Assembly (NCBI RefSeq): GCF_900129235.1
Contig: NZ_FQUV01000002.1
Span: 62,001 to 126,000 of the forward strand
DNA from: Litoreibacter ascidiaceicola
GTDB lineage: Bacteria; Pseudomonadota; Alphaproteobacteria; Rhodobacterales; Rhodobacteraceae
Length of the DNA: 64,000 bases
Direction: 5' to 3'
Position numbers and translations under genes: made by a program. Below the pieces are notes generated by a model, which had not been told where the DNA came from, did not search any database, and worked only from the letters and a program-made list of their open reading frames with translations. Position 1 is the stretch's first letter. Every line of letters starts with the position of its first letter. Positions 31,278-54,827 of the stretch are shown here, piece by piece.

Positions 31278-31294
31278 TGGGTGCCCATTTTAAG

Positions 31295-31341: not shown

Positions 31342-31425
31342 TCAACAAAAAGCAAAAAATATGTTGCTAAATGTTGTTTTGAATGGAAGCCTTATAGGAG
31401 GAGAATTTAGCATTACAGGCATGTC

Positions 31426-33849: not shown

Positions 33850-33865
33850 ACTGGGGGATCAAGGC

Positions 33866-35571: not shown

Positions 35572-35596
35572 ATAGGTGCGTCCTTTGGATTATGTT

Positions 35597-36403: not shown

Positions 36404-36472
36404 AAGCGGGTCTTTCAGGAATCGTAGAATATTTATACAGAAAGCCACAAATTACACAGTTCGACTACAATA

Positions 36473-36494: not shown

Positions 36495-36603
36495 ACTATT
36501 GATATGTGGCGCTGAGTGTTGAAACTTCGACGTTAAGAACAAACCGAATCCAGCGTTCTTGGGGGGCTCTGGGTCTGCAACTCGAACAAGACAGGGGAAT
36601 TCT

Positions 36604-37548: not shown

Positions 37549-37562
37549 GCTCCGCGACAAAG

Positions 37563-37584
37563 GGGTGGGCGCACGAGCCCACCC
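37563..37584 (+). other. Stem-loop between the betaine-type binding protein and ATPase genes
   Basis: Perfect eight-base arms GGGTGGGC (37563-37570) and GCCCACCC (37577-37584), six-base loop, 14 bases after the stop of the binding-protein gene. No T-run follows, so readthrough to the ATPase gene is expected, with stabilisation of the upstream message. Confidence 0.65.
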
Positions 37585-37649
37585 GACAAACCTACCAAGC
37601 GCGATATCTCCGGCTTTCCCGGTCCGATTAGCCTGCATCTGAGGATGTT

Positions 37650-38681: not shown

Positions 38682-40687
38682 ACCTGCTGCGCCGCATATT
38701 CCTACAAAAGGCGGCCCTGTTCTGGCTGCCTGTCTTTGCGGTCACATGGGCGCTGTCGGCTTATTCTTTCCCTCTTTACAAGGCTCTTGGTGCGCGCTGG
38801 ATCATTAAATACCCCGCCCAAGCGCAACTGCATCTGGAAGCCAATATCAGCGCCTTCATGCAATGGCTGGTCGAGGACGCCAGTTTCGGCCTGTTCAGCT
38901 TTCGGGATTTAACGCGGTTCATATCCGCACTGATTGAAGCTCCATACAGCTTCGCGCGGAACGCGCTGATCGACGGTTTTTCGGTCGGGCTGGGCAGCGA
39001 TGCAGTGGATGTGGCGCCGTCGCTTAGCTGGGTTGCCGTCATCGTCACTTTGGTTGCAATGGGCCATTATGCGCGCGACTGGAATCTGGCCGCGTTGATG
39101 GCGGGATGCTTCGGCTACCTCGCAATCTTTGGCCAATGGGACAGCGCAATGGTGACGCTGGCCTCGGTTCTGATCGCCGTTCCCATCGGGGCAGTCGGGG
39201 GCTTGCTGCTGGGCATACTTGCGTATCGCATGCCATATTTTGAAACCATGATCAGGCCCGTGTTGGACCTGATGCAGACCGTCCCGGTTTTCTCCTACTT
39301 GGTGCCAATCCTGTTTCTGTTCGGCTTCGGTCCGGTCGCCGCATTGGTCGCGACGATCATCTACGCAATGCCCCCGATGGTTCGCGTGACAATCGTCGCC
39401 CTGAGAGGGGTGCCAAGCGAAATTCACGACGTGGGCGTTATGGTCGGCTGCACCAAGCGACAGTTGATGTGGAAGGTGATCATCCCCTCGGCGGCACCCA
39501 CATTGATGGTGGGGGTCAATCAGGTGATCATGCTGTCGCTGAACATGGTCATCATCGCTTCGATGATCGGCGCAGGCGGGCTTGGATATGACGTTTTGAC
39601 CGCGTTGCGCCGTTTAGATATCGGCGGCGGGATTGAGGCGGGGGTCGCCATTGTGGTTATGGCAATCGCGCTGGACAGGCTCAGTCAGGCCTTCGCCACA
39701 CGGGTTCCCGACGAGGTGGCAAACCACACCACCCAAAACTTAGCAAAGCGTCATCCTTGGCTTGTTTCCGTGTTGGTCGTGGCGGTCGGGACCTTCCTGC
39801 TGTCCTACATCTTCCCTGCCGTTCAGGACTACCCCAAGAGCATGACCCTATCGACCGGCACGTTCTGGTCGGACGTCATCGGCTACATCAACGTCCATTT
39901 CTTCGATGCCTTCGAGGCGGTCAAAACCGTGTTCCTGACCTATCTGCTCTTGCCCGTGAAACGCTTCTTCGTGGGGATCCCTTGGGCGTGGGGCATCATC
40001 GTGATGACATTGATCGGGTGGCGGGTCGGCGGTATCGGACTTGGGCTTCTTAGTGGTGTTCTGACAGCCTTTATCGCGGCCGTCGGACTTTGGAACAAGG
40101 CAATGGTCACCGTCTACCTCTGCGGAGTTTCGGTATTGGTGGCTTCGGCAATCGGTATCCCCTTGGGCATATTTGCCGCCCAAAACGACAGGGCAAACCG
40201 CATCATCGGCTCGTTCATCGACACGCTGCAAACCCTACCAAGTTTCGTGTATCTCATCCCTGTTGTGATGCTGTTCCGCGTCGGCGACTTTTCGGCCATG
40301 GTCGCGGTGGTGCTATATGCGATGGCCCCCGCTGTCCGCTATGCGGCGCATGGCGTGCGCAGTGTCGATCCGCAACTCATAGAGGCCGGGCTGGTGTCCG
40401 GCTGCACTCCAAGGCAGTTGCTTTGGCGGATCAAGCTGCCCATGGCCTTGCCCGAACTGTTGCTTGGCCTGAACCAGACTATTTTGCTGGCGCTGTCCAT
40501 GTTGGTGATCACCGCCTTGGTCGGCACGCGTGACCTAGGGCAGGAGGTTTATATCGCCCTGACCAAAGCCAACACCGGACAAGGTATTGTTGCAGGGCTG
40601 TCGGTGGCCTTCATCGCCATCATTGCCGACCGCATATTGTCCGCTTTCGCCACCAGAGCACGCACAAAAATGGGGATGGGATCTTGA
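38678..40687 (+). CDS. Tandem-fused glycine betaine ABC permease (two ProW-like halves)
   Basis: 669 residues, about twice the size of ProW/OpuAB permeases. Two homologous halves are visible: residues about 1-345 carry VGCTKRQLMWKVIIPSAAPT and VGVNQVIMLSLNMVIIAS, and residues about 350-669 carry the matching SGCTPRQLLWRIKLPMALPE and LGLNQTILLALSMLVITA. Each half ends in a similar RLSQAFATR / RILSAFATR helix. One polypeptide can thus supply both transmembrane domains of the importer. Overlaps the ATPase gene (ATGA) and the next kinase gene (TTGA). Confidence 0.88.
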   Translation: MNLLRRIFLQKAALFWLPVFAVTWALSAYSFPLYKALGARWIIKYPAQAQLHLEANISAFMQWLVEDASFGLFSFRDLTRFISALIEAPYSFARNALIDGFSVGLGSDAVDVAPSLSWVAVIVTLVAMGHYARDWNLAALMAGCFGYLAIFGQWDSAMVTLASVLIAVPIGAVGGLLLGILAYRMPYFETMIRPVLDLMQTVPVFSYLVPILFLFGFGPVAALVATIIYAMPPMVRVTIVALRGVPSEIHDVGVMVGCTKRQLMWKVIIPSAAPTLMVGVNQVIMLSLNMVIIASMIGAGGLGYDVLTALRRLDIGGGIEAGVAIVVMAIALDRLSQAFATRVPDEVANHTTQNLAKRHPWLVSVLVVAVGTFLLSYIFPAVQDYPKSMTLSTGTFWSDVIGYINVHFFDAFEAVKTVFLTYLLLPVKRFFVGIPWAWGIIVMTLIGWRVGGIGLGLLSGVLTAFIAAVGLWNKAMVTVYLCGVSVLVASAIGIPLGIFAAQNDRANRIIGSFIDTLQTLPSFVYLIPVVMLFRVGDFSAMVAVVLYAMAPAVRYAAHGVRSVDPQLIEAGLVSGCTPRQLLWRIKLPMALPELLLGLNQTILLALSMLVITALVGTRDLGQEVYIALTKANTGQGIVAGLSVAFIAIIADRILSAFATRARTKMGMGS

Positions 40688-41571
40688 CCGAAGCTGAACA
40701 AAGAGCCTTGGACAAGGTCTCGAATTTGCCCATCTGGAAAGCCGCGGAGGGGGTCGAGTTTCTAGGCGGCGGTATCACCAATTTCAACGTCTCGGTCTGG
40801 GATCAGGGCAAGCGCTACGTCGTGCGTGTGGGCGAGGACATCGTGCTTCACCAGATCATGCGCTTTAACGAGCAAGCCGTACATGCAGCGGCATATGCGG
40901 TGGGGATCGCGCCGACTATTGTGCATACAGAGCCCGGCATCATGGTGTTGGACTTCGTCGAAGGATGCACATTGGACGAGGAAGCAATACGCCAAGACAC
41001 CAAGCTGGAGCGGATCGTACCACTGCTCAAAACCTGTCACACCGATGCGGTCCGGTTTCTGCGTGGCCCCATTCTGACATTCTGGGTTTTCCATGTCCTG
41101 CGTGACTACGCGGCGTCGTTGAAACACGGCCGGTCAAGCTACACAAAAATTTTGCCGGACCTACTGGAAACCGCGGACAAACTGGAGCGATCCGTCGGGC
41201 CAGTGCAGATGGTTCTGGGGCACAATGATCTGCTCGCAGCGAATTTCATAGATGATGGAAATCGGTTGTGGTTGCTGGATTGGGAGTATGGCGGTTTCAA
41301 CTCCCCGCTGTTCGATCTCGCCGGGCTCGCGTCCAACAATGAACTGAACGAACGGCAAGAGAGTTGGCTGTTGGAAACCTATTTCGAAACCCCTGTGACG
41401 GACCAGCTGCGCAATCGCTATCAGGCGATGAAATGCGCCTCCCTGCTGCGCGAAACGATGTGGAGCATGGTGTCGGAAATCCACTCCGAAATCGACTTCG
41501 ACTACGCCGAATACACCCGAAAAAACATGTCGCGATTTTATGCCGCGCTGTCTGACTTCAAAGCAATGTGA
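40684..41571 (+). CDS. Choline/ethanolamine-kinase-like phosphotransferase (copy 2)
   Basis: 295 residues from a TTG that overlaps the permease stop. Choline-kinase fold: GGGITNFNVSVWDQG nucleotide loop, LGHNDLLAANFIDDG catalytic motif and LLDWEYGGFNSPLFDLAG metal motif. It is more distant from copy 1 than the two oxidases look from each other. It sits inside the betaine-type import operon, directly before the second FAD/GcvT oxidase, so the imported amino-alcohol, or its demethylated product, is probably phosphorylated. The specific substrate cannot be read from the sequence. Confidence 0.86.
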   Translation: MTEAEQRALDKVSNLPIWKAAEGVEFLGGGITNFNVSVWDQGKRYVVRVGEDIVLHQIMRFNEQAVHAAAYAVGIAPTIVHTEPGIMVLDFVEGCTLDEEAIRQDTKLERIVPLLKTCHTDAVRFLRGPILTFWVFHVLRDYAASLKHGRSSYTKILPDLLETADKLERSVGPVQMVLGHNDLLAANFIDDGNRLWLLDWEYGGFNSPLFDLAGLASNNELNERQESWLLETYFETPVTDQLRNRYQAMKCASLLRETMWSMVSEIHSEIDFDYAEYTRKNMSRFYAALSDFKAM

Positions 41572-41579
41572 GGAACACC

Positions 41580-44021
41580 ATGAGCACCTTCCCAACCAGT
41601 GCAAAGGCCGTCGTTATCGGGGGTGGTATCGTGGGCTGCTCCACGGCGTATCATCTGGCAAAACTTGGCTGGACTGATGTCGTCTTGCTGGAGCGGCAGA
41701 AACTGACCTCCGGCACGACCTTTCATGCGGCGGGGCTTGTTGGGCAGTTGCGGTCCAACGCAAATATCACGCAATTGCTGGGCTATTCAGTTGATCTCTA
41801 CAACACGTTGGAGAAGGAAACAGGCCAAGCAACCGGCTGGAAAATGAATGGCGGCCTGCGCCTTGCGTGTAACGAGGAACGTTGGACCGAGGTAAAGCGA
41901 CAGGCAACGACAGCACATTCGTTCGGTCTGGAGATGCAGCTGCTCACACCATTAGAAGCGCAAGATTTGTGGCCATTGATGAATGTCGATGATGTGGTCG
42001 GCGCGGCATACATGCCGACCGATGGGCAAGCCAACCCGTCCGACATCACGCTATCGCTTGCTAAAGGCGCCCGCATGGCTGGAGCGCGTATTTTCGAAGA
42101 TACGAAAGTCACCAAGATCAAGCTTGAAGACGGCGTGATCAAAGGTGTGATGACGGAAAAGGGCTTCATCGAGTGCGAAAAGGTCATTCTATGCGGCGGC
42201 CAATGGACCCGCGATTTCGCGGCGACCGTCGGGGTGAATGTGCCGCTGGTGCCGATGGAGCACCAGTACATGGTCACGGAACAGATCGACGGCGTCACGT
42301 CTGACCTGCCGACGCTGCGCGACCCCGACAGATTGACCTATTACAAAGAAGAAGTCGGCGGATTGGTTATGGGCGGCTACGAGCCGAACCCGATCCCGTG
42401 GGCGCTCAAAGGTATCCCGGAGGGGTTCCACTACACGTTGCTCGATTCCAATTTCAATCATTTCGAGCAGATTGTGGAGCTTGCTTTGGGCCGCGTGCCA
42501 GCCTTGCAGACCGCTGGCATCAAGCAATTGGTGAACGGGCCGGAAAGCTTCACACCGGACGGCAATTTCATTCTGGGTGAAGCGCCGGAGCTAAAGAACT
42601 TCTACGTCGGTGCAGGCTTCAACGCCTACGGCATCGCCGCTGGTGGCGGGGCGGGGATGGCGCTGGCGGAATGGGTCGCCAAGGGCGAGCCTCCATTTGA
42701 TCTGTGGCCGGTAGATATCCGCCGCTTTGGCCGCCCGCATTTCGACACTGACTGGGTCCGCACACGCACTGTCGAGGCGTATGGCAAACACTACACGATG
42801 GCATGGCCGTTCGAGGAGCACAGCTCCGGCAGGCCTTGCCGGAAGTCACCTTTGTACGAGACGCTGAAAGGCAAAGGCGCTTGCTTTGGTGAAAAGCTTG
42901 GATGGGAGCGGCCAAACTGGTTCGCGCCTTCGGGGATGGAGCCGAAAGACGTCTATAGCTTCGGGCGACAGAATTGGTTTGACGTCGTGGGCGAGGAGCA
43001 CAAAGCCGGGCGCGAAGCAGCGGTGTTGTTCGACCAGACTTCCTTCGCCAAGTTCGTCCTCAAAGGGCCGGACGCAGAAGCAGCGCTCAGCTGGATTGCG
43101 GCCAATGACGTGCAAAAGCCGGTGGGCTCGTTGATCTACACGCAAATGCTCAACGATCGTGGCGGCATTGAGTGCGACCTGACTACAGTCCGCGTGGCGC
43201 GGGACGAGTATTACATCGTCACCGGTACCGGTTTCGCGACCCATGATTTTGAATGGATATCGCGCAACATCCCTGACGGCATGAACGCGCAACTGGTCGA
43301 TGTGACGTCCGCATATGCAGTCTTGTCGCTGATGGGGCCAAAGGCACGCGACATTCTTGAAAAGGTCACCAAAGCAGACGTCTCCAATAAAGCGTTCAAG
43401 TTCGGCACCGCCAAGACCATCGGCATAGCCGGATGCCCTGTGAACGCATTGCGGGTCACCTATGTTGGCGAGCTGGGTTGGGAGCTTCACCTGCCAGTGG
43501 AATACGCCACCACGGTCTACACCGCACTGGTAGAAGCGGGCGCGGAGTTCGGGTTGCGAGACGCAGGTTACCGGACGATTGAAAGCATGCGATTGGAGAA
43601 AGGCTACCGCGCATGGGGCGCGGATATAGGCCCAGACCACACGCCCGCCGAGGCTGGATTGGCGTGGGCGGTGAAATTGAAAAAGAACATCGACTTCAAA
43701 GGGCGCAAAGCAGCCGAGGCGCAGCGGGACAACGGGGTGAAGAAAATACTCGCAGGCTTCACCGCGGCCCCTGATATTGTGCTGTCCGGTCGAGAAACCA
43801 TCTACCGGAACGGCAAGCGGGTCGGGTGGCTGAGCAGCGGCGGGTTTGGCTACACGCTCAACAAATCAATCGGATACGGCTATGTCCGATCGGATGAACT
43901 CATTGACGCGAACTATGTGATGGATGGCGACTACGAGTTGGAGGTCGCGACAGAACGGGTGCCATGCACGGTCCATATGGCACCGCTGTATGATCCAATA
44001 ATGGAGCGTGTGAAGGCATAG
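41580..44021 (+). CDS. FAD/GcvT-domain amine oxidase, dimethylglycine/sarcosine dehydrogenase-like (copy 2)
   Basis: 813 residues from the ATG at 41580 (GAGGA site; a GTG 12 bases earlier overlaps the previous stop). Same build as copy 1: VVIGGGIVGCSTAYHLA, covalent-FAD motif TTFHAAGL (His49), then the GcvT-type folate domain (SLMGPKARDILE, YVGELGWELHLP, YRTIESMRLEKGY). It likely demethylates an N-methylated compound, delivering one-carbon units to tetrahydrofolate. Last gene of the operon binding protein, ATPase, permease, kinase, oxidase. A GC-rich inverted repeat (44031-44037 with 44045-44051) follows before the convergent alcohol dehydrogenase gene. Confidence 0.88.
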   Translation: MSTFPTSAKAVVIGGGIVGCSTAYHLAKLGWTDVVLLERQKLTSGTTFHAAGLVGQLRSNANITQLLGYSVDLYNTLEKETGQATGWKMNGGLRLACNEERWTEVKRQATTAHSFGLEMQLLTPLEAQDLWPLMNVDDVVGAAYMPTDGQANPSDITLSLAKGARMAGARIFEDTKVTKIKLEDGVIKGVMTEKGFIECEKVILCGGQWTRDFAATVGVNVPLVPMEHQYMVTEQIDGVTSDLPTLRDPDRLTYYKEEVGGLVMGGYEPNPIPWALKGIPEGFHYTLLDSNFNHFEQIVELALGRVPALQTAGIKQLVNGPESFTPDGNFILGEAPELKNFYVGAGFNAYGIAAGGGAGMALAEWVAKGEPPFDLWPVDIRRFGRPHFDTDWVRTRTVEAYGKHYTMAWPFEEHSSGRPCRKSPLYETLKGKGACFGEKLGWERPNWFAPSGMEPKDVYSFGRQNWFDVVGEEHKAGREAAVLFDQTSFAKFVLKGPDAEAALSWIAANDVQKPVGSLIYTQMLNDRGGIECDLTTVRVARDEYYIVTGTGFATHDFEWISRNIPDGMNAQLVDVTSAYAVLSLMGPKARDILEKVTKADVSNKAFKFGTAKTIGIAGCPVNALRVTYVGELGWELHLPVEYATTVYTALVEAGAEFGLRDAGYRTIESMRLEKGYRAWGADIGPDHTPAEAGLAWAVKLKKNIDFKGRKAAEAQRDNGVKKILAGFTAAPDIVLSGRETIYRNGKRVGWLSSGGFGYTLNKSIGYGYVRSDELIDANYVMDGDYELEVATERVPCTVHMAPLYDPIMERVKA

Positions 44022-44070: not shown

Positions 44071-45216
44071 CTAGAGTATGGCCTCAAACAACGCTTTGGT
44101 ATTCGCAGCGGTCATCTCGACCGGATTTCCGCCCGTGCTCGGGTCGCGCAAGGCGGCGTCGGTCAGCAAGTCCAGGTCCGCGTTTTTTACACCAAGCTCC
44201 GTCAGTGTTTTCGGGATCGACATCGATGCGTTCAACTCGTCCACATAGGCGCAGAACCCGTCAAACCCGCCAGCGATCCCCAGATAGGCGGCGACCATAT
44301 CAAACCGCGCTGCTATCGCGTCTTTGTTGAATTGCAGCACCGCAGGCATGCATACCGCGTTGGTCGTGCCGTGGTGGGTGTGATGGACAGCCCCAATCGG
44401 GTGGCTCAGCGCGTGAATGGCACCCAGACCTTTTTGAAAACCGGTTGCGCCCATGGCGGCAGCGGACATCATGTGCGCGCGCGCCTCAAGGTCGGTCGGG
44501 GTGGCATAGGCGCGGGGCAGGTATTCTTTGACCAGCCGCATCCCCTCCAACGCAATCCCTTGGCTCATCGGATGGTAATGCGGGCTGCTATAGGCTTCGA
44601 CGCAATGCGCGAAGGCATCCAAGCCGGTGCCTGCGGTGATGAACTTTGGCATGCCAACCGTCAGCTCCGGGTCACAGATCACCACAGTGGGCAGCATTTT
44701 GGGGTGGAAGATGATCTTCTTCTCATGCGTGTCCGAGTTGGTGATCACGCTGGCGCGCCCGACTTCGGAGCCAGTGCCAGCCGTGGTTGGAACGGCGACG
44801 ATAGGCGCGATCTTGTCGGGGTTGGCGCGGGTCCACCAATCGCCGACATCTTCGAAATCCCATAGCGGGCGGGATTGGCCAGCCCAAAACGCGATAACCT
44901 TCGCCAGATCAAGGCCTGAGCCGCCGCCAAACGCTACGACGCCATCATACCCGCCCTCGCGGTAGACTGCGACGCCAGCTTCGGCGTTCTTATCCGTGGG
45001 GTTCGGGTCGACTTCGGAAAACAACCCGCGCCCCAAGCCTGCCGCCTCCAGATGGTCGAGCGTTCGCGTGGTGATCTCCATCGACGCCAGCCCCTTGTCC
45101 GTCACCAACAAAGGTTTGGACATGCCGGCAGATTTGCATGCGTCAGCGATTTCCGAAATACGCCCTGCGCCAAAGCGGATAGCGGTCGGGTAGGACCAGT
45201 TGCCAGTCAGGTTCAT
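44071..45216 (-). CDS. Iron-containing alcohol dehydrogenase
   Basis: 381 residues, group III (Fe-ADH) family, NAD(P)-dependent and cytosolic. NAD motif region VVAFGGGSGLDLAK, VPTTAGTGSEVGRASVI, then metal-binding DAFAHCVEAYSS and HALSHPIGAVHHTHHG with the conserved histidines. Full length. It is the last gene of a five-gene minus-strand operon, starting two bases after the aldehyde dehydrogenase stop. In this operon it would oxidise a hydroxyl group to the aldehyde used by that enzyme. Confidence 0.92.
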   Translation of the reverse strand: MNLTGNWSYPTAIRFGAGRISEIADACKSAGMSKPLLVTDKGLASMEITTRTLDHLEAAGLGRGLFSEVDPNPTDKNAEAGVAVYREGGYDGVVAFGGGSGLDLAKVIAFWAGQSRPLWDFEDVGDWWTRANPDKIAPIVAVPTTAGTGSEVGRASVITNSDTHEKKIIFHPKMLPTVVICDPELTVGMPKFITAGTGLDAFAHCVEAYSSPHYHPMSQGIALEGMRLVKEYLPRAYATPTDLEARAHMMSAAAMGATGFQKGLGAIHALSHPIGAVHHTHHGTTNAVCMPAVLQFNKDAIAARFDMVAAYLGIAGGFDGFCAYVDELNASMSIPKTLTELGVKNADLDLLTDAALRDPSTGGNPVEMTAANTKALFEAIL

Positions 45217-45217
45217 C

Positions 45218-46597
45218 TTAGTGTGCCTTCTTCAGATGGTAGGATTTTGGACGTGTCAGGTTGTGGTAGCCAATGACCGACAAGCCGCCGCCGCGTCCAG
45301 TATTCTTGCAGCCCGTCCAGCACAAGGCCGGATCAAGGTAGTCGGCGCGGTTCATGAACACCGTGCCCGTTTCGATCTGGTCGCCGACCCTTTGGGCGCG
45401 TTCAATGTCTTTTGTCCAAAGCGACGCGGTCAGGCCGAATTCGCTGTCATTCATCAGCGCAATCGCTTCCGCGTCGTCTTTGACTTTCATGATGCCCACA
45501 ACCGGCCCGAAGCTTTCTTCGCGCATAACGCGCATATCATGGGTCACGTTGGTCAGGATTTGCGGCGTCAGATATGCGCCGCCGTCATCCTCTGTGAAGG
45601 AGGCTATATGCGCTTTCGCACCATCGGATATCGCCTCCGCGATTTGCCCACGCACCTCGTTTGCGAAGCGGGTATGGGCCATTGGGCCGATGGTGGTGTC
45701 CGGGTCCAGCGGGTTGCCAAGTTTGTAGCCGTTCACGATCGCCACGGCCTTCTCGACAAACTGGTCGTAGAGGGCCTCCACCACATAAATCCGCTCGATC
45801 CCGCAACAGCACTGTCCGGAGTTGAACATCGCCCCGTCGATCAACGTATCGACCGCAGCATCCAGATCGGCGTCTTCCATCACATAACCCGGATCTTTGC
45901 CACCAAGTTCCAGCCCGACACCGGTGAAGGTGCCCGCCGCCGCGCGCTCCATGGCCTGACCGCCACCGACAGAGCCGGTGAAGTTGACGAAATCGAAGCT
46001 GCGGTTGCCGATCAGATGTGACGTGGTGTCGTGGTCGACGAAGATGCTTTGGAACACCTCTTTCGGGATGCCCGCTTGATGGAAGGCCGCCGCCATGCGC
46101 TCGCCGACCAACAAAGTCTGGGTGGAATGCTTCAGCACCACGGTATTGCCAGCAATCAGGGCAGGGGCCACGGTGTTGATTGCGGTCATGTACGGATAGT
46201 TCCACGGGGCTACGACCAACACGACGCCGTGTGGCACGCGGCGAATATAGCGGTGGAAGTCACCGTCGTTGGAGACTTCGATGTTCGCCAATGCGCCTTG
46301 CGCGATCTCGGCCATATGGCTGGCACGCTCGTTAAATCCGCCGAACTCGCCGCCATAGCGGATCGGACGACCCATTTGATGGGCCAGCTCCGGCACGATT
46401 TCGTCGTTCATCGCGCCCACGGCGGCGACGCCTGCCATCACCAGATCAATGCGGTCTTGCAAGGGGCGTGCGGCCCAAGCGGGTTGGGCGCTACGCGCGG
46501 TGCGGGCGACGGCCTCGGCCTCGGGGACACTCAATACGGGGCGTTCAGCGAACACCGATCCGTCAATCGGAGAGATGCATTTTAAAGTTTTGGTCAC
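45218..46597 (-). CDS. NAD(P)-dependent aldehyde dehydrogenase
   Basis: 459 residues, full-length ALDH. VVAPWNYP with the catalytic Asn133, GLELGGKDP with general base Glu230, and FNSGQCCCG with the nucleophilic cysteine (Cys264 by alignment to GQxC). FTGSV is the cofactor loop. It lies between the glutamine-synthetase-like ligase and the iron alcohol dehydrogenase, so the three probably act on the same intermediate; related enzymes (PuuC, GabD, IpuI) oxidise gamma-glutamylated aldehydes. Substrate is inferred from context. Confidence 0.92.
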   Translation of the reverse strand: MTKTLKCISPIDGSVFAERPVLSVPEAEAVARTARSAQPAWAARPLQDRIDLVMAGVAAVGAMNDEIVPELAHQMGRPIRYGGEFGGFNERASHMAEIAQGALANIEVSNDGDFHRYIRRVPHGVVLVVAPWNYPYMTAINTVAPALIAGNTVVLKHSTQTLLVGERMAAAFHQAGIPKEVFQSIFVDHDTTSHLIGNRSFDFVNFTGSVGGGQAMERAAAGTFTGVGLELGGKDPGYVMEDADLDAAVDTLIDGAMFNSGQCCCGIERIYVVEALYDQFVEKAVAIVNGYKLGNPLDPDTTIGPMAHTRFANEVRGQIAEAISDGAKAHIASFTEDDGGAYLTPQILTNVTHDMRVMREESFGPVVGIMKVKDDAEAIALMNDSEFGLTASLWTKDIERAQRVGDQIETGTVFMNRADYLDPALCWTGCKNTGRGGGLSVIGYHNLTRPKSYHLKKAH

Positions 46598-46609
46598 TGG
46601 TCTTCCCCC

Positions 46610-47974
46610 TCAGGCTTTCTCAAATCCGCGCGCGATTTCGTAATCGGTGACAACGCGCTCAAAATCTTCCTGTTCCACCTCTGCGCAGCGGTGGTAGTGG
46701 TCCACTACCACGTCCCCGAGCGCCGCACGCAGCATGTTGGAACCTTTCAGCGTGACCATCGCGTCGCGCAGGTTGGCGGGTATTTGCTTGGCACCTGTGT
46801 CTTCATAAGCATCACCGGTCAACGCAGGTTGCAGGTCTAGCTTTTCCTCGATGCCCGCAATGCCTGCGGCCAATTGTGTGGCCATAGCCAAGTACGGGTT
46901 CAGGTCGGACCCACCCACACGGCATTCCACGCGCACCGCCTTGGTGTTCTCGCCACATAGCCGGAAGCCTGCGGTGCGGTTGTCGATGGACCACACGGTG
47001 CCGGTCGGCGCGAAGGTGCCTTTCTGGAACCGCTTGTAGCTGTTCACATATGGCGCGAGGAAATAGGTCACGTCCGGCGCGTATTTGATCAAGCCGGCCA
47101 TGTAATGGCGCATCAGATCAGACATCCCGTGCTTGGCGTCAGGGTCATAGAACGCGGACTTTCCCTCCTTCCAAAGTGACTGGTGAATGTGGCTGGACGA
47201 GCCGACGCGGTCTTGATGCCATTTGGGCAAAAACGACGCCGCATGACCGTTTTGCCAAGCGATTTCCTTGATGGCGTGCTTTGCAATCGTGTGATGATCG
47301 GCGCAGTTCATCGGCGCGTCGTAGCGAATGTTCAACTCTTCCTGCCCCGCCTCGGCCTCGCCCTTGGTGTTCTCAATCGGGATACCCGCGGCATAGAGGT
47401 GATTGCGGATTGGCCGCATCACATGCTCTTCCTTGGTGGTCTGGAAGATATGGTAGTCCTCGTTGTAGCCGCTGATCGGGGTCAGGTCGCGAAAGCCGCC
47501 TTTGCGGATTTCGTCATAGCTTTTCTCGAACAGGAAAAACTCCAACTCGGTCGCCATCGCTGCACTAAACCCAAGCGCGTCCAACCGCGCGAGCTGCTTC
47601 TTCAACACGGCACGTGGGGAATGCGGAACAGCCTCATGCGTGTGGTGATCCAACACGTCGCACAGAACCATTGCCGTCCCTTCAAGCCACGGCACGGGGC
47701 GCAAGGTCTCCAAGTCCGGCTTCATCACATAGTCGCCATAGCCCGACTGCCAGCTGGTGGAGGCGTAGCCGTCCGGCGTCGCCATTTCCAGATCAGTCGC
47801 CAGCAGGTAGTTGCAGCAATGGGTTTCCTCATAGGCGCTGTCGACGAAATGCTGGGCTAGAAAGCGCTTGCCCATCAAACGCCCTTGCATATCGACCAGA
47901 CAGACAAGGATCGTGTCGATCTCTCCGGCTTTCACTTGTTTTTTGAGCGCGTCGAAGGTCAGTTTATTTGGCAT
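46610..47974 (-). CDS. Glutamine-synthetase-family gamma-glutamyl-amine ligase (PuuA/GMAS-like)
   Basis: 454 residues from the ATG at 47974 (ATG at 47983 is also possible). Members of this class use ATP to join glutamate to an amine through its gamma-carboxyl. Family features: VDMQGRLMGKRF, the first metal-binding TELEFFLFEKSYDEI, GEAEAGQEELN, GHAASFLPKWHQDRVGSSSHIH, and NRTAGFRLCGENTKAVRVE. It lacks the spacing of housekeeping GlnA and sits with ALDH, Fe-ADH and an amidohydrolase, so an amine rather than ammonia is the expected acceptor (putrescine, methylamine or an alkanolamine). The gene start overlaps the amidohydrolase stop by 11 bases. Confidence 0.9.
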   Translation of the reverse strand: MPNKLTFDALKKQVKAGEIDTILVCLVDMQGRLMGKRFLAQHFVDSAYEETHCCNYLLATDLEMATPDGYASTSWQSGYGDYVMKPDLETLRPVPWLEGTAMVLCDVLDHHTHEAVPHSPRAVLKKQLARLDALGFSAAMATELEFFLFEKSYDEIRKGGFRDLTPISGYNEDYHIFQTTKEEHVMRPIRNHLYAAGIPIENTKGEAEAGQEELNIRYDAPMNCADHHTIAKHAIKEIAWQNGHAASFLPKWHQDRVGSSSHIHQSLWKEGKSAFYDPDAKHGMSDLMRHYMAGLIKYAPDVTYFLAPYVNSYKRFQKGTFAPTGTVWSIDNRTAGFRLCGENTKAVRVECRVGGSDLNPYLAMATQLAAGIAGIEEKLDLQPALTGDAYEDTGAKQIPANLRDAMVTLKGSNMLRAALGDVVVDHYHRCAEVEQEDFERVVTDYEIARGFEKA

Positions 47975-48770
47975 CAGATACATCCGGATTGGCTAGGGAC
48001 TGGGGAACGCCCATGCTGGAGAGCGCACGGGTGAGGCTTTGCGTGAGTAGGGTGGCAATGTCGGACAGGCCAGCGTCGGTCGCGATCAGATCATTGCGGA
48101 CTTCTATCATTACATAAGGAAGACGCCGACCCGACAAGTGCTTTTCGATACTGTGCAACACGCCATCTTCTGGCCCGTAAGGCGCGTTGTAACGGGCGTC
48201 GTAAGCAGAGCTTTCGAGCGTTGGCATCATCGCCTGCGCCAAACGGGTGTCCGCTGCATGCAGGAGCCCGATTTCAACATCACGGGGCTTACCGTGGAAA
48301 ACGGGGGTGAAGCTGTGGATGGTCACCAGAACGGGGTCCGGTGTCTCACTTAGGACCTTTGTAACCGCCGCGTGGAACGGCTCGTATATGTCTTTGGTGC
48401 GCGCTACGCGCTCGGCCTCGGTGATATGTGCATTGCCAGGGATCGGGCAGAATTCGGTATTTGCAGGCATCGCACTGGTGGCGTCGGGAGGGCGGTTGCA
48501 GTCGTAAACCAGACGCGAGAACCGCGCTTCGATCAATGATGCGTCGAACGTGTCGCTAAGCTTTCTGGCCAACGCCGAAGCCCCGGGGTCCCATGCTACA
48601 TGCGCCTCAAGTTGTTCTTCGGACAGGCCTAGGCTGTCTAACCCAGCCGGCACGCGATTGGCAGCATGTTCGCAGACCAGCACAACGGGGCTCTGGCCGC
48701 TTCGGTTGACCACCTCGAAGGCTGGCCCATCGGTTTGGTTTAGGAGTTTGGAGGTCACAAGGCGGCTCAT
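47964..48770 (-). CDS. N-formylglutamate amidohydrolase family protein
   Basis: 268 residues. FGase fold: VVLVCEHAANRVP, HVAWDPGASALARKLS, RLVYDCNRPP and VTIHSFTPVFHGKPRDVEIGLL with the likely zinc-binding His/Glu residues. Classical members split N-formylglutamate to glutamate and formate. Here no histidine-utilisation gene is nearby; the gene is coupled to a gamma-glutamyl ligase and two dehydrogenases, so hydrolysis of a gamma-glutamyl amide is an attractive alternative. It overlaps the DeoR gene by four bases. Confidence 0.88.
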   Translation of the reverse strand: MSRLVTSKLLNQTDGPAFEVVNRSGQSPVVLVCEHAANRVPAGLDSLGLSEEQLEAHVAWDPGASALARKLSDTFDASLIEARFSRLVYDCNRPPDATSAMPANTEFCPIPGNAHITEAERVARTKDIYEPFHAAVTKVLSETPDPVLVTIHSFTPVFHGKPRDVEIGLLHAADTRLAQAMMPTLESSAYDARYNAPYGPEDGVLHSIEKHLSGRRLPYVMIEVRNDLIATDAGLSDIATLLTQSLTRALSSMGVPQSLANPDVSDAK

Positions 48771-49531
48771 TCGAGGATCACGGCTTGCTTGCCAGCGGCA
48801 ACAAGTTCTTCGCGGATGTCATTCGGGACGGGGCCGTCGCTAACGATACGATGGATCGAGGAAAGCGGACACACTTCAAACGATGCCAAGGCCTCGAATT
48901 TGGAGGCATCGGCAAGCACGGTGACCTCGTTGGATTGTTCGATCATTACCCGCGCCACCTGTGCTTCGTCAAAATTGAAATCCATCGCCCCAGTTCGCGC
49001 ATCCATTGCGCCAACGGTCAAGACAGCGTGATGGGCGCGAAATGCACGAAGCTGCGTTGTCGCCATCGCCCCAAGTGTCTGGTTGTTGGCCGCACTGAAC
49101 TCGCCCCCCAACAAAAACACGCGGTTGCCGCTGTTCCCCTTGCTTATGGTGCGGGCAATTTCTGTAGAGTTCGTGACGATTGTCAGACCTGCGGATTTGG
49201 CCAGTTCCTCGGCCAGAAATAAGGTGGTCGAGCCGGTATCCAGTAACAACGTCTCGCCCGGTTTGAATATCTCGGCAGCCAGTTTTGCGATTTTCATTTT
49301 GGCGTCTACGTTTTCAGACATACGCTGTTGAAAATGCCCTTCACCAAGGGCGCGGGGCAGGGTTGCGCCGCCATGAACCTTTTGGATTTTGCCCTGATCG
49401 GACAGCTGCGTCAGATCGCGGCGCACAGTTTCACGCGATGCCTCAAGAAGCCGCGCCAGATCTTCGACTGACGCTTCTTCCCGCTTTCTGACCAATTCGA
49501 TCAGCTTGGATTGCCTCTTGTGCTTTTTCAT
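48767..49531 (-). CDS. DeoR-family repressor (third of three)
   Basis: 254 residues. DeoR helix-turn-helix (ASVEDLARLLEASRETVRR, then LSDQGKIQKVHGGATLP) and the sensing domain (LDTGSTTLFLAEEL, LTIVTNSTEIARTI, LADASKFEA). GlpR-like. First gene of the minus-strand operon with amidohydrolase, gamma-glutamyl ligase, ALDH and Fe-ADH, and divergent from the GlpA-like flavoprotein gene; repeats in the shared upstream region are candidate operators. It probably controls both transcription units. Confidence 0.9.
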   Translation of the reverse strand: MKKHKRQSKLIELVRKREEASVEDLARLLEASRETVRRDLTQLSDQGKIQKVHGGATLPRALGEGHFQQRMSENVDAKMKIAKLAAEIFKPGETLLLDTGSTTLFLAEELAKSAGLTIVTNSTEIARTISKGNSGNRVFLLGGEFSAANNQTLGAMATTQLRAFRAHHAVLTVGAMDARTGAMDFNFDEAQVARVMIEQSNEVTVLADASKFEALASFEVCPLSSIHRIVSDGPVPNDIREELVAAGKQAVILE

Positions 49532-49556
49532 AGTTTTCCGGCGATATTGACTAACA

Positions 49557-49618
49557 TGGTCACGAAATCTACAAAAGTAGTCAGCAAACGGTCAATAATT
49601 GGTCACGGATTGTCAATA
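49557..49618. promoter_or_regulatory. Phased direct repeats, candidate operator of the third DeoR-family repressor
   Basis: TGGTCACG occurs at 49557-49564 and 49600-49607 (43 bases apart, about four helical turns), and GTCAATA at 49591-49597 and 49612-49618 (21 bases apart, two turns). All lie between the divergent repressor (starts 49531) and flavoprotein genes. Confidence 0.5.
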
Positions 49619-49654
49619 CTTCTACAGCGATCAACGGAAAATTTTGCCTCCGTC

Positions 49655-51043
49655 TTGGACCAATCACTGTTTGATGTGGTGGTGATCGGCGCTGGTGTGG
49701 TCGGCTGCGCCGTGGCGCGACGGTTCACTTTGGAAGGCGCGCGGGTTGCTGTGCTGGAAAAAGGCACCGACATTCTGGACGGTGCCAGCAAGGCAAACAG
49801 CGCGATCCTGCACACCGGCTTTGATGCCCCCGAAGGCTCGTTGGAACTGGCCTGCATACGCGACGGATACGCGGAATATCAGGCCATTCGCGACAGCTTG
49901 GGATTGGTGCAAGACAATGCGGGGGCCTATGTCGTGGCATGGACCCAAGACGAGCTGCGCAACCTCGAAAGCATCAAGGCCAAAGCGCATCTCAAAGGTG
50001 TGACTGATGTCGCACTGGTCGACGCGGAAACCTTAGGCGCGTGGGAACCAAACCTCAGTCGGAACGCTTTGGGGGCGGTCCACGTTCCGGGCGAAAGCCT
50101 CATTGATCCGTGGTCCGCGCCATACGTCTATCTGCGACAAGCAATGGAGAACGGCGCGAAGGTGTTTACCTCTTGCGAGGTTGCGGAGGGCACGTTTGAT
50201 GGGGAGGAGTGGCGCGTTGTGACGACAAAAGGAACTCTCCGCGCGCGCCATGTAATCAACTGCGCTGGGTTATACGGGGATGTCGTGAATCGAGCGTTGC
50301 TGGGCGCGGCGCAGTTCGAAATTAAACCGCGTAAGGGGCAGTTTGTTGTGTTCGACAAGGCTGCCAGCGATTTGGTGTCTGCGATCATTTTGCCCGTTCC
50401 CAGCGAGACAACCAAAGGGATTGTCGTGTTCCGCACGGTGTTCGGAAATCTGGCCGTCGGCCCGACCGCCGAGGAGCAGGACAGCCGCACTGACGCCTCT
50501 ACCGATGATGAGACCCTGAAGGCTTTGATTGCAGATGGTATCGCCAAAATCCCCGCATTGAAGGACATGCCAATAACGGCGACCTATGCGGGTCTGCGTC
50601 CGGCATCCGACCAGAAAGAATACCGCGTCAGTGCGACGTCAGAGCAGAACTGGATCACCGTGGGCGGCATCCGTTCGACCGGTCTTAGCGGCGCGTTGGG
50701 GATCGCGCGGCACGTTTATGGCTTGTACGAAAAAATGGGGGCATCGCATGACAAGCTGCCTGACCCTGTAGTGCCCAAAGCCAATATGTTGTCCGAGGCT
50801 GGCCCACGCGACTGGAAGCAAGACGGCGCGGGCGAGGTGGTGTGCCACTGCGAATTGGTCACAAGGCGCGAAATAGAGACCGCTTTGCATGGCCCGTTGC
50901 CTGCACGGTCGTTGGCAGGTCTGAAGCGGCAAACCCGCGCCACTATGGGGCGGTGTCAGGGGTTTTACTGCTCGGCGCGGCTGGCAGAACTGACCGATGG
51001 CTGTTTCGTGTCGGCGATGGCTGAGCGTCTTTCTCATGAGTGA
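49655..51043 (+). CDS. GlpA-like FAD-dependent dehydrogenase with BFD [2Fe-2S] domain
   Basis: About 462 residues from a TTG at 49655; the start is uncertain because the frame stays open to 49511, but the upstream part overlaps the operator repeats and the FAD motif begins right after this codon (FDVVVIGAGVVGCAVARRF). The N-terminal domain is of the glycerol-3-phosphate/hydroxyglutarate/amino-acid oxidase class. The C-terminal part has a BFD-type [2Fe-2S] motif, CHC ... CQGFYC (Cys-x-Cys and Cys-x4-Cys), as in GlpA and opine/hydroxyproline dehydrogenases. It overlaps the next flavoprotein gene by eight bases, so the two are probably subunits of one dehydrogenase. Substrate unknown. Confidence 0.85.
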   Translation: MDQSLFDVVVIGAGVVGCAVARRFTLEGARVAVLEKGTDILDGASKANSAILHTGFDAPEGSLELACIRDGYAEYQAIRDSLGLVQDNAGAYVVAWTQDELRNLESIKAKAHLKGVTDVALVDAETLGAWEPNLSRNALGAVHVPGESLIDPWSAPYVYLRQAMENGAKVFTSCEVAEGTFDGEEWRVVTTKGTLRARHVINCAGLYGDVVNRALLGAAQFEIKPRKGQFVVFDKAASDLVSAIILPVPSETTKGIVVFRTVFGNLAVGPTAEEQDSRTDASTDDETLKALIADGIAKIPALKDMPITATYAGLRPASDQKEYRVSATSEQNWITVGGIRSTGLSGALGIARHVYGLYEKMGASHDKLPDPVVPKANMLSEAGPRDWKQDGAGEVVCHCELVTRREIETALHGPLPARSLAGLKRQTRATMGRCQGFYCSARLAELTDGCFVSAMAERLSHE

Positions 51044-52271
51044 TGTCGATGTGGCAATTATCGGCGGTGGCCCCGCCGGGCTGGCCGCCGCGAGTGCGCT
51101 GAAATCCGCAGGAGTGGAGCGAGTCGTCGTGCTGGAGCGCGAAGCAGAGGCGGGCGGTATTCCGCGCCATTGCGGACATCCGCCCTTTGGGTTGCGGGAG
51201 TTCAACCGCATCATGACCGGCCCGACCTATGCAGAACGCCTTGTCGCGTCGGCACAGACTGCAGGCGTTGAAATTCGCACGCTTACGACCGTTGTAGAAG
51301 CCCGCGCGCAGGGCAAGCTGCGGCTTGCCACACCAACTGGAGTGACTGAACTCAACGCAAAACGGGTGATCCTCGCCACCGGTGTGCGCGAAACCCCGCG
51401 ATCCGCGCGGCTGGTCTCTGGGGCCCGTGTCTCGGGCGTTCTGAATACGGGCGCGCTGCAATCCATGGTGTATCTCAAGAACCGCCGCCCGTTCCAGCGA
51501 CCGGTTATCTTCGGCAGCGAACTCGTCGCCTTTTCGGCCATCCTGACCTGCCGCCATGCCAGAATTCGCCCTATCGCAATGATCGAGGCCAACAAGCACG
51601 TCACAGCGCGCTGGCCTTGCGCATTGTTCCCAAGGCTGGCCGGTGTGGCGCTCCACACGGGAACGCGCTTGGTTGAAATTCTGGGCGACACCAAGGTGGA
51701 AGGCGTCGTCGTCGAAGACGCCAAGGGGCAAATTAGTCGTCTTGAGTGCGATGGCGTTATTCTCAGCGGGCAGTTCACGCCGGAGGCGGCACTTGCCCGT
51801 AGTGGTCATCTGCTGGTTGATCCGGCAACTGGTGGTCCGCAGGTCGATCAATGGGGACGGCTATCCGACCCCACATATTTCGCCACAGGAAATGTTTTAC
51901 GCCCCGTCGAGACGGCCGGATGGAGTTGGTCAGAGGGAGGGCGGACCGGTCAATGGGTCGCTCGGGACCTTGCGGGACTATTGCCAGAATCCGAACCATC
52001 TGTAAGGGTTTCGGTGAACGACCACCGTCTGCGCTTCGCCATGCCTCAAAATATCGTTTTATCACAAGACGTCGGAGGTATGAGAGACATTCAACTTCGT
52101 GTTGCTCAACATGTCGATGGGGACTTGATTGCGGAGTGTGACGGCAAAAAGATCTGGGGGCGGAAACTGCGTGCCGGCCCTGAACAGCGCGTACTTGTGC
52201 AAACGCATGAAATTGCGGCAGCATGCGCCGGACGAGATGTAGCGCTTAGAATATCGGAGCCCGCCGATTGA
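51036..52271 (+). CDS. FAD/NAD(P)-type oxidoreductase subunit (HcnB/OoxA/GlpB-like)
   Basis: 411 residues from the ATG at 51036. N-terminal VAIIGGGPAGLAAASALK dinucleotide motif; RVILATGVRETPRSARL and a second FAD-contacting region YFATGNVLRPVETAG. This resembles the alpha subunit of opine oxidases, hydrogen cyanide synthase HcnB and D-hydroxyproline dehydrogenase, which pair with a beta flavoprotein. It ends in an extra beta-rich domain (about 335-411) and lacks its own BFD domain, which is instead on the partner encoded upstream. Electrons would pass between the two proteins and on to the respiratory chain. Confidence 0.84.
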   Translation: MSDVDVAIIGGGPAGLAAASALKSAGVERVVVLEREAEAGGIPRHCGHPPFGLREFNRIMTGPTYAERLVASAQTAGVEIRTLTTVVEARAQGKLRLATPTGVTELNAKRVILATGVRETPRSARLVSGARVSGVLNTGALQSMVYLKNRRPFQRPVIFGSELVAFSAILTCRHARIRPIAMIEANKHVTARWPCALFPRLAGVALHTGTRLVEILGDTKVEGVVVEDAKGQISRLECDGVILSGQFTPEAALARSGHLLVDPATGGPQVDQWGRLSDPTYFATGNVLRPVETAGWSWSEGGRTGQWVARDLAGLLPESEPSVRVSVNDHRLRFAMPQNIVLSQDVGGMRDIQLRVAQHVDGDLIAECDGKKIWGRKLRAGPEQRVLVQTHEIAAACAGRDVALRISEPAD

Positions 52272-52456
52272 CTGAAAATGCGATGCGTATCACCCTCTGC
52301 GGGGCAAAAAGAGGGGCAATTGAGCGCCATCGGGCTGTCACAGTGGGGCTAATGTAACAAAAGTGACATCAAAAACCCTGTAGATAACTGGGTATGAAAA
52401 TTGCGAAAAGCACGACATCCTGTGGTGCTCCAACTATTCCGGGAGGGAATAACTTT

Positions 52457-53593
52457 ATGAAAAACACTCGAAACACGTTGAGCCGCCGCGCGGTCCTCAA
52501 GTCCGGTGCGGTCGCTGGTGTGGCCGCTTTGGCAACGCCCGCACTGGTGTCCAAGGCATTTGCGACATCCGGCGAGATGACCCTGATGGACTGGTCTGAT
52601 TACTGGCCCGAAGACATGCTGGCAAATTTCACCGCCGAGACCGGCATCAAGGTGAATTACATCGGCATCGGCTCCAACGAAGAGCTGATCAACAAGATGA
52701 AAGCCTCGCAAGGCTCCGGCGCTGATCTGATCGGCCCGACCAACAACCGCTCGTTGCAATGGGGTCCGTTAGAACTTCTGCAACCATTCGACATGACCCG
52801 CATTCCAATTGACGCGGCAAACCCCGCAATGGCCAAAATCGGTCCGGACGCTTGGGATTTCGGTGGCAACACCTGGATTCCACACATCTGGGGCACCGAA
52901 GGCATGTCCTGGCGTGTCGACAAATGGTCGCCAGCCGATGCGTCTGGTGTGCCAAGCTATGGTGAAATCTGGTCTGAAGAGAACGCGGGCAAAACCATGA
53001 TCCGTGCGCATTCCGGCATGCTGTGTGCAGGCCTCTATATGGAAGCGTCCGGTGAAATGGATCCGGGTTCTGTCTGGGCCGCCTACGAGTCCGAAGAGAA
53101 CATGCGCAAAACCTGGGGCATGATCGCCGACTGGTGCATCGCACGCAAAGCCAACCTGAAGCTGATCTGGAACGACGCAGATACGCAGAAAAACGGTCTG
53201 CTGAACGATGGCGTTGTTGTCGGCCAGACATGGGATGGCCCACCTCTTGCGCTGAAAACCGCAGGCGAGCCTGTGACCTACCAAGCACCGGCAGAAGGTG
53301 CGATGGCGTGGGTTGACGGTCTGGCGATGCCAAAAGGTGCGAAGAACATTGATCAAGCCTACGAGCTGATCAAGTTTGCCTTTGATCCGAAGAACGCAGG
53401 TCCGGCCATCGACCAGCACGGCTACAACTCCCCGATCCTCGGGGCGGACAAACTGGCGGGCGAAGCTTATGCGAAAAACTTCGCGGAAGCCTATCCGGGC
53501 GACGCTTTGGCCAATCTCAACGCATGGCCAGCAGAAGCGCCTTGGTACGCCGATGTGCGCACGGAGTTTGTGAACAAGTTCCAAAGCGCATGA
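52457..53593 (+). CDS. Polyamine-type substrate-binding protein (PotD-like), Tat-exported
   Basis: 378 residues from the ATG at 52457 (GGGAGGGAA site). The N-terminus has a twin-arginine signal, SRRAVLKSG, followed by a hydrophobic stretch ending near SKAFA|TS. PotD-type fold: MTLMDWSDYWPEDMLANFTA, VNYIGIGSNEELINKMKAS and WDGPPLALKTAGEPVTYQAP. Ligands of this family are polyamines, but relatives bind other amines. First gene of a binding protein, ATPase, two-permease operon; a stem-loop follows it. Confidence 0.88.
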   Translation: MKNTRNTLSRRAVLKSGAVAGVAALATPALVSKAFATSGEMTLMDWSDYWPEDMLANFTAETGIKVNYIGIGSNEELINKMKASQGSGADLIGPTNNRSLQWGPLELLQPFDMTRIPIDAANPAMAKIGPDAWDFGGNTWIPHIWGTEGMSWRVDKWSPADASGVPSYGEIWSEENAGKTMIRAHSGMLCAGLYMEASGEMDPGSVWAAYESEENMRKTWGMIADWCIARKANLKLIWNDADTQKNGLLNDGVVVGQTWDGPPLALKTAGEPVTYQAPAEGAMAWVDGLAMPKGAKNIDQAYELIKFAFDPKNAGPAIDQHGYNSPILGADKLAGEAYAKNFAEAYPGDALANLNAWPAEAPWYADVRTEFVNKFQSA

Positions 53594-53608
53594 GCGTAAA
53601 ACACTTTG

Positions 53609-53637
53609 GTCCGGCGGCATCCTTGATGTGGCCGGAC
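53609..53637 (+). other. Stem-loop between the PotD-like and PotA-like genes
   Basis: Arms GTCCGGC (53609-53615) and GCCGGAC (53631-53637) with a 15-base loop that can pair further inside. No T-run follows. Position and shape match the stem-loops after the other two binding-protein genes in this window. Confidence 0.6.
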
Positions 53638-53708
53638 TGCAAGGGGAAAACCCCGACCAAGGGCTCGGTACAGGGCTCGGAATAAAACTGACAACGGGGA
53701 ATGACTAC

Positions 53709-54821: not shown

Positions 54822-54827
54822 ACGTCG

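Follow-up and report, generated by a model that had tools for sequence, protein, structure and literature searches.

The five-gene operon at positions 44071–49531 of the DNA stretch analyzed here (the window, 64,000 nucleotides from Litoreibacter ascidiaceicola) can be assigned with considerable confidence, from its sequence relationships, as a rewired member of the published γ-glutamyl ethanolamine catabolic pathway. Judging from the orthologues, ethanolamine is very likely the substrate and the proposed chemistry very likely right. The ligase would join ethanolamine to glutamate using ATP, an iron alcohol dehydrogenase (Fe-ADH) and then an aldehyde dehydrogenase (ALDH) would convert the protected alcohol to γ-glutamylglycine, and an FGase-family amidohydrolase would release glycine and return the glutamate, so that the aldehyde is kept attached to glutamate rather than free and toxic. 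A GlpR-like regulator of the DeoR family probably controls the operon along with a divergent glycerol-3-phosphate (G3P) dehydrogenase-like gene pair and an ABC transporter. The glutamylation route has already been published for C. salexigens, A. tumefaciens and Phaeobacter MED193 and is hence not new; the core pathway is a recognized marine route for phospholipid head groups, of which ethanolamine is one. What is unusual here is that the pathway genes lie behind a glycerol-type regulator, beside genes that look able to burn glycerol phosphate.

All five genes are on the minus strand. The first encodes the DeoR/GlpR-family regulator (48767–49531, 254 aa; Pfam DeoRC, 7.8e-45), followed by the FGase-family protein, a predicted γ-glutamylglycine amidohydrolase (47964–48770, 268 aa; Pfam FGase, 1.4e-43), the glutamine synthetase (GS)-like ligase, predicted to act on ethanolamine (46610–47983, 457 aa; Pfam Gln-synt_C, 5.8e-97), the ALDH, predicted to oxidize the γ-glutamyl-protected aldehyde to γ-glutamylglycine (45218–46597, 459 aa; Pfam Aldedh, 6.5e-120), and the Fe-ADH, a predicted γ-glutamylethanolamide dehydrogenase (44071–45216, 381 aa; Pfam Fe-ADH, 7.9e-51). 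The DeoR and FGase reading frames overlap by 4 bases and those of the FGase and ligase by 20, whereas gaps of 12 bases and 1 base separate ligase from ALDH and ALDH from Fe-ADH; a single transcription unit is therefore likely. The strand, coordinates and Pfam matches thus bear out the five-gene operon under a DeoR regulator that had been proposed in an earlier note on this DNA. As to the extent of the unit, the five-gene core stands, but the note left out the divergent genes at 49655–57016, which should be read jointly with it. Litoreibacter halocynthiae has the identical gene order, with 93% DNA identity across 21 kb.

The ligase is 75% identical to the solved chain 5dm3, a protein that shares 99.6% identity with the Chromohalobacter israelensis ligase. 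It scores 789 bits with 5dm3 versus 133 bits with the solved methylamine ligase 9qur, and in the ligase tree it is placed among the ligases of RpiR/TRAP ethanolamine operons. It is the sole close copy in the genome, the next matches being 29–31% identical. Among the NCBIfam matches listed (the best 25 of the 45 in the case of the ALDH), no operon protein reaches an equivalog cut-off: the ligase scores 211.9 bits with PuuA (cut-off 650) and 246.7 bits with GlnA (cut-off 429.15), and the FGase-family protein scores 29.8 bits with HutG (cut-off 278.75). By those models, therefore, the ligase is neither PuuA nor a housekeeping GS, and we rejected the identification of the amidohydrolase as HutG, the N-formylglutamate deformylase. 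The only solved relative of the amidohydrolase at E values up to 0.001 is 2odf (Atu2144), with 49% identity. Relatives for which the window protein is the best reference are 43–50% identical to it; identity is 55% in loci L185 and L187 and 89% in L. halocynthiae. In an alignment of 99 FGase sequences, 34 positions are conserved in no fewer than 97% of them, including H35, H57, D61, D90, H152 and E223. Another FGase protein in the genome (C20:136804) has the best Pfam score.

At sequence level, the window was compared with the C. israelensis locus, which encodes in order RpiR, FGase, the small and large TRAP subunits, a solute-binding protein (SBP), ligase, ALDH and Fe-ADH. Its SBP is 100% identical, across the 318 residues compared, to 4uab, which we take to be the C. 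salexigens ethanolamine SBP. Vetting and colleagues reportedly linked the solved chains 4uab/4xf5 and 5dm3 with the Chromohalobacter ethanolamine operon in 2015. The enzymes and their relative order are alike in C. israelensis and the window, whereas RpiR and TRAP are both lacking at the window locus. In Westermann et al. (2023; PMC10132767), each pathway step is named in Phaeobacter MED193, with names given to the amidohydrolase, the ligase and both dehydrogenases; the C. salexigens SBP binds ethanolamine, A. tumefaciens C58 is also covered, and phosphorylethanolamine induces the operon's proteins. The MED193 operon (MED193_10021–10056), as described there, comprises RpiR, GGAH, EtoVWX, ETAGA, GAADDH and GETADH. 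Compared by that description rather than by the MED193 sequences, the four enzyme functions are assigned alike; relatives with the MED193 layout and the window share an amidohydrolase upstream of the ligase and a terminal ligase–ALDH–Fe-ADH run. MED193 carries RpiR and TRAP inside the operon, whereas the window has a GlpR-like DeoR, no TRAP, and a divergent G3P-dehydrogenase-like pair with an ABC transporter. An enzyme of the formylglutamate amidohydrolase family had earlier been proposed for the last step (Krysenko et al., 2019). The Streptomyces coelicolor GlnA4 pathway, likened here by description, is predicted to pass through the same intermediates and has the same type of proposed last step, but its cluster includes a short-chain dehydrogenase and a glutamine amidotransferase (PMC6529630, text and Figure 2 legend). 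The order of reactions in the earlier note (glutamylation, oxidation of the alcohol to aldehyde and acid, and hydrolysis by an FGase-family enzyme) and its choice of ethanolamine both fit the published pathway and are backed by close orthology.

Among relatives, 54 of 80 named loci and 39 of 60 family loci have ALDH, Fe-ADH and FGase genes all no more than 9.5 kb from the ligase gene, midpoint to midpoint, which argues that the set is not due to chance. The 60 loci, from 58 genomes, were chosen by hand among the 180 of 295 genomes that have a ligase match. ALDH is close to the ligase in 68 of the 80 named loci, Fe-ADH in 69, and RpiR is present in 55. The complete RpiR–FGase–TRAP–ligase–ALDH–Fe-ADH set occurs in 48 named and 36 family loci; an FGase without a nearby TRAP occurs in seven and three, respectively, some of them cut by contig ends. 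Because open reading frames were picked mechanically and an overlapping frame was sometimes chosen, absences may be false: the L157 ligase was left unlabeled and was located through its match coordinates, and in L159 only the TRAP large subunit and glycerol kinase were labeled, not the dehydrogenase itself.

Two readings of the enzymes compete with ethanolamine catabolism. The same chemistry might serve another alkanolamine (alaninol, 3-aminopropanol, serinol or N-methylethanolamine) or a mixed pool. The local ethanolamine TRAP is missing, the unit is flanked by a PotD/PotF-like ABC transporter and a choline-type operon, and a kinase–DMGDH pair recurs near the ligase in two relatives; against this, the 75% identity to the Chromohalobacter enzyme, the position in the ligase tree and the single close ligase copy make a different substrate improbable. 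A Puu-type polyamine route or a GmaS-type methylamine route would also use a GS-like ligase and an ALDH, and putrescine-binding proteins are among the relatives of the ABC binding protein. The Puu putrescine pathway likewise uses glutamylation as protection, followed by oxidation and hydrolysis. However, NCBIfam places the window ligase in a different subfamily, Pfam scans of 30 window proteins, covering part of the window's genes, showed no PuuD-type glutamine amidotransferase domain, and the alcohol dehydrogenase would be left without a substrate. We rejected both routes, which are scarcely credible given the PuuA model score and the 9qur versus 5dm3 scores. Points that weigh against the main assignment are the lack of TRAP genes in the operon, the 43–50% identity between the FGase-family protein and the relatives mentioned above, and the NCBIfam cut-offs missed among the matches listed.

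RpiR is absent from the window locus, and the DeoR protein occupies the slot where most relatives have it. Its best NCBIfam model is GlpR_Halo (166.8 bits, under the cut-off of 300), and its relatives are found beside G3P-dehydrogenase-like genes. Such genes diverge from it here on the plus strand: a DAO-fold flavoprotein with a BFD [2Fe-2S] domain, resembling G3P oxidase and GlpA (49655–51043; 199.5 bits with the type 2 G3P oxidase model, cut-off 460), and its partner, a pyridine-nucleotide-disulphide oxidoreductase (50997–52271). The flavoprotein reading frame opens at 49511, and the TTG at 49655 is its inferred start. The pair is followed on the same strand by a PotD/PotF-like SBP of an ABC transporter (52394–53593), whose best solved relative is the putrescine-binding 7xjm (106 bits), an ATPase (53628–54821) and two permeases (54828–55757 and 55754–57016). 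A choline-type ABC/kinase/DMGDH operon also flanks the ligase unit, and a kinase–DMGDH pair is close to the ligase in L252 and L054 too.

The divergent intergenic region (49532–49654) contains an operator-like site, TGACTAACATGGTCA, at 49548–49562 and four RTCA half-sites, 10–11 bases apart, at 49580–49615. L. halocynthiae has an identical half-site run and a single-base difference in the TGACTAACATGGTCA site. The pattern TGACYAAN(1-2)TGGTCA occurs four times genome-wide and not at all in a reversed control; two of the four sites precede DeoR|dehydrogenase and TRAP|glycerol kinase. The same two places hold the only runs of at least three RTCA at 10–11 base spacing within 182,506 bases of the genome. 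With a half-site pattern there were 13 rows, representing 12 distinct places, versus one control match, and a palindrome pattern matched 18 distinct places versus 10 in the control; the first operator pattern, with three mismatches allowed, was discarded as too loose (25 rows versus 7). Because all patterns were written after the sites were seen, their rarity is suggestive only.

The association of DeoR, the dehydrogenase-like pair and the ABC transporter may be an accidental neighborhood, reflecting neither a shared regulon nor a shared substrate, and we regard this as a serious possibility, if somewhat short of an even one. Of 295 family genomes, 24 carry the dehydrogenase-like gene, and 21 of these also encode glycerol kinase in that stretch; in the window genome DeoR adjoins the pair and glycerol kinase sits elsewhere. 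The ligase operon shares the stretch in only six of the 24, five of the 24 (G088, G138, G162, G215 and G226) lack a ligase match at 1e-100, and G171, a member of the same genus, has the operon in its RpiR/TRAP form and lacks this dehydrogenase. That the operator patterns postdate the sites points the same way. Against accident, a tree test rejected a single clade for the six joined ligases (p-AU 5e-43), indicating that the ethanolamine operon joined the dehydrogenase module at least twice independently; the 4-base DeoR/FGase overlap and the paired operator sites, with none in the control, also argue for a functional link. A more speculative scheme, which we consider rather unlikely, has a GlpR-type regulon, with G3P as common inducer, serving the breakdown of both halves of glycerophosphoethanolamine. 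The PotD-like transporter would bring glycerophosphoethanolamine into the cell unsplit, or else phosphoethanolamine; a phosphodiesterase encoded elsewhere would cleave the diester, the dehydrogenase pair would burn the G3P and the γ-glutamyl operon the ethanolamine. The phosphoester link is drawn from L224, where a PehA-like esterase stands beside a run of DeoR, IMPase, Na/Pi cotransporter, FGase, ligase, ALDH, Fe-ADH and, after one reading frame, an ABC transporter related to that of the window (SBP 70%, ATPase 77% identical); L095 and L182 have the same run with no labeled esterase. No coupled ethanolamine/glycerol-phosphate form was found in the titles or abstract openings of the open-licence papers listed by literature searches. 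If the rewired form is real, one regulator would couple the nitrogen half of a lipid fragment (ethanolamine) to its carbon half (glycerol phosphate), which would help to recognize lipid-degrading bacteria from sequence and would supply a substrate hypothesis for the uncharacterized ABC transporter.

As a corollary of the glycerophosphoethanolamine scheme, the TRAP clade found beside glycerol kinase may take up glycerol besides, or instead of, ethanolamine; the rewired form, if real, would give a substrate hypothesis for this clade, whose members might be scored as ethanolamine transporters in ocean surveys that use EtoX profiles. No EtoVWX TRAP genes are present at the window operon. A diverged copy is found elsewhere on this contig, at a distance of about 258 kb and next to glycerol kinase, and its SBP, the only close one in the genome (C11:367815–368861), is 61% identical to 4uab. 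In an alignment of 57 family SBPs with 4uab, it falls in a separate clade and carries D96A, D218A and T220E at otherwise fixed positions. Its group of 20 consists of L069 and 19 sequences from stretches with glycerol kinase or the dehydrogenase, and differs at D96, D218, T220 and other positions from 32 plus 5 other RpiR-type sequences. This SBP may therefore carry another cargo, and, despite the 61% identity, these group differences led us not to adopt it as a proven ethanolamine transporter. Consistent with another cargo, four of the five dehydrogenase genomes that lack the ligase carry this TRAP type, the exception being G088. On the other side, L069, of the same SBP clade, lies within a complete RpiR/FGase/ligase operon, and TRAP genes immediately precede the ligase in L047, L048, L150 and L161.

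The subject operon consists of five genes that run head to tail on the minus strand from 49531 down to 44071 (open reading frames with domain search) and encode, from 5' to 3', a DeoR-family regulator, an FGase-family amidohydrolase, a GS-like ligase, an aldehyde dehydrogenase (ALDH) and an iron alcohol dehydrogenase (Fe-ADH). Because neighboring genes overlap by 4 and 20 bases or are separated by 12 bases and 1 base, the run from DeoR to Fe-ADH points to a single transcription unit. The order is identical in Litoreibacter halocynthiae (L184), where the DNA is 93% identical over 21 kb. The operon described in the earlier note is real; all of its genes are contiguous on this strand and their domains match.

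We take 4uab to be the C. salexigens ethanolamine solute-binding protein (SBP) and 5dm3 to come from the same project. The best solved relative of the window ligase is 5dm3 (789 bits, 75% identity), and for the FGase a search at E ≤ 0.001 gives a single solved relative, Atu2144 (2odf, 49% identity); on these matches the chemistry that had been claimed, glutamylation, oxidation and gamma-glutamyl hydrolysis, is very likely right. In Chromohalobacter israelensis (L257), with the gene order RpiR, FGase, TRAP, ligase, ALDH, Fe-ADH, the ligase is 99.6% identical to 5dm3 and the adjoining SBP matches 4uab at all 318 residues compared. At the level of sequence, the window proteins are tied directly to the published kind of ethanolamine operon through this Chromohalobacter locus. 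Westermann et al. 2023 describe the gamma-glutamyl ethanolamine pathway, including Phaeobacter sp. MED193, C. salexigens and A. tumefaciens C58 (PMC10132767), and Krysenko et al. 2019 propose the same intermediates for Streptomyces with a formylglutamate-amidohydrolase-family last step (PMC6529630). The pathway itself is already known; what is new is this variant layout, which has a testable link to glycerol-phosphate metabolism.

At a threshold of 1e-100, 180 of 295 Rhodobacteraceae genomes have a ligase match. The neighbor counts are lower bounds, as several loci are cut off by contig ends and ORFs were picked mechanically: among the named loci, the best 80 of at least 581 confirmed stretches, ALDH lies near the ligase in 68, Fe-ADH in 69, FGase in 59, TRAP in 60, RpiR in 55 and the complete set in 48, and the figures for 60 hand-chosen family loci are 53, 54, 41, 43, 44 and 36. 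One family genome (G200; loci L096 and L095/L182) has two ethanolamine operons, one with TRAP and RpiR and the other with an ABC transporter, an inositol-monophosphatase-family phosphatase (IMPase) and a Na/Pi cotransporter.

The window operon contains neither RpiR nor TRAP genes. Its DeoR gene diverges from a plus-strand run (49655-57016) that begins with a flavoprotein with a BFD domain, followed by a partner oxidoreductase and a PotD-like ABC transporter; the best model for the flavoprotein is type 2 G3P oxidase, with a score under the cut-off. This flavoprotein is found in 24 of 295 family genomes (1e-80), and all 24 neighborhoods were read (window, L047, L048, L143-L162 and L183). The same stretch contains a GlpK-like kinase in 21 of the 24, an EtoX- or EtoW-like TRAP (≥58% identity) in 19 and the ligase operon in six (window, L047, L048, L150, L157 and L161, the L157 ligase being placed by coordinates from the family-wide search). 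These counts indicate that the usual module is DeoR with TRAP, divergent from the dehydrogenase pair with glycerol kinase, and its content suggests a unit for glycerol or glycerol phosphate. In the window's genome, the parts of that module lie at two separate places on contig C11. The sole close TRAP SBP, whose clade shows the changes D96A, D218A and T220E when compared with 4uab, is encoded at C11:367815-368861; the EtoX/W/V-like genes there (L105:9313-13975) diverge from a GlpK-like kinase with a score of 404.8 bits (GlpK cut-off, 590.35). Glycerol may be the cargo of this kinase-linked SBP. There are also results against the idea that the TRAP clade beside glycerol kinase takes up glycerol as well as, or instead of, ethanolamine.

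A first ligase tree (FastTree, topology only) groups the window with L057, L061 and L069, all of the RpiR type, and places L047, L048, L150 and L161 far away in a group of their own. A second tree was built from 33 hand-picked rows, with L157 added (IQ-TREE quick search, SH-aLRT only). In it the midpoint root separates the two joined groups, which stand on branches of support 100, the window stands beside L057/L061/L069 with support 92 (not starred), and a constraint holding all six joined ligases as one group is rejected (p-AU 5e-43). The two groups and the rejected constraint show that the ligase operon has joined the DeoR module on at least two occasions, with a different layout each time, DeoR-FGase-ligase in the window and DeoR-TRAP-ligase in the others. 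Such repeated joining is the best argument for functional coupling; against coupling, however, 18 of the 24 dehydrogenase genomes have no adjoining ligase and five have no close ligase at all.

Operator-like sites are found in both parts of the split module. The window DeoR/dehydrogenase intergenic region contains TGACTAACATGGTCA together with four RTCA half-sites in a row, and the TRAP/glycerol kinase region contains TGACCAAATGGTCA with three in a row. With patterns written after the sites had been inspected, TGACYAAN(1-2)TGGTCA matches four places in 3.74 Mb (reversed control, none) and runs of three half-sites starting GTCA match 12 places versus one in the reversed control; for that reason these putative sites are only suggestive of one regulator at both regions. 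Compared with the window, L. halocynthiae has an identical half-site run and a single base change in the other site.

Convergent with the operon, at 36559-44021, are genes for an OpuAC-type SBP, a choline-type ABC ATPase, a double permease, a choline-kinase-like protein and a DMGDH-like flavoprotein. Could N-methylated ethanolamines be phosphorylated, demethylated and then fed into the ethanolamine route? For the PotD-like ABC transporter divergent from the operon, relatives of its SBP (1e-80) occur in 14 of 295 family genomes, and this SBP adjoins the ligase at >60% identity in the window, L184, L095/L182, L224 and L250. DeoR, an IMPase and a Na/Pi cotransporter share the run in L224 and L095/L182, and L224 has a divergent esterase 64% identical to a protein of L091, whose own score with the PehA model is 450 bits, below the cut-off of 900. 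The L224 run (L224:4245-19835), comprising the PehA-like esterase, DeoR, IMPase, Na/Pi cotransporter, four ethanolamine enzymes and ABC transporter, is a candidate organophosphate-ester island. Esterase, DeoR, cotransporter and ABC genes occur without the ligase in L178, and a calcineurin-like phosphoesterase follows the ABC genes in G003 (L172). The phosphatase, Na/Pi and esterase neighbors suggest a phosphodiester or phosphorylated ethanolamine as ABC cargo. Eight other SBP contexts (L173-L177, L179-L181) list no such partners, aside from L181, where a DeoR gene lies beside an ORF that is GlpD-like by eye, ∼7 kb away. A scan of window genes next to the ABC transporter shows no phosphodiesterase, and the one GDPD-family match in the genome is elsewhere, at C19:234329.

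A kinase-DMGDH pair also adjoins the ligase in L054 and, separated from it by an IMPase, in L252. At 30513-36448 a DeoR gene diverges from a second DMGDH-like/choline-kinase-like pair; next come an IMPase and a further DeoR regulator, encoded on the opposite strand. In L040 the ethanolamine operon has relatives of this DeoR, DMGDH and kinase as its neighbors. In a Litoreibacter assembly of uncultured origin (L239:4356-12562), a choline-type ABC transporter, a protein that is creatinase-like by eye, a ligase relative (72%) and Fe-ADH form one run.
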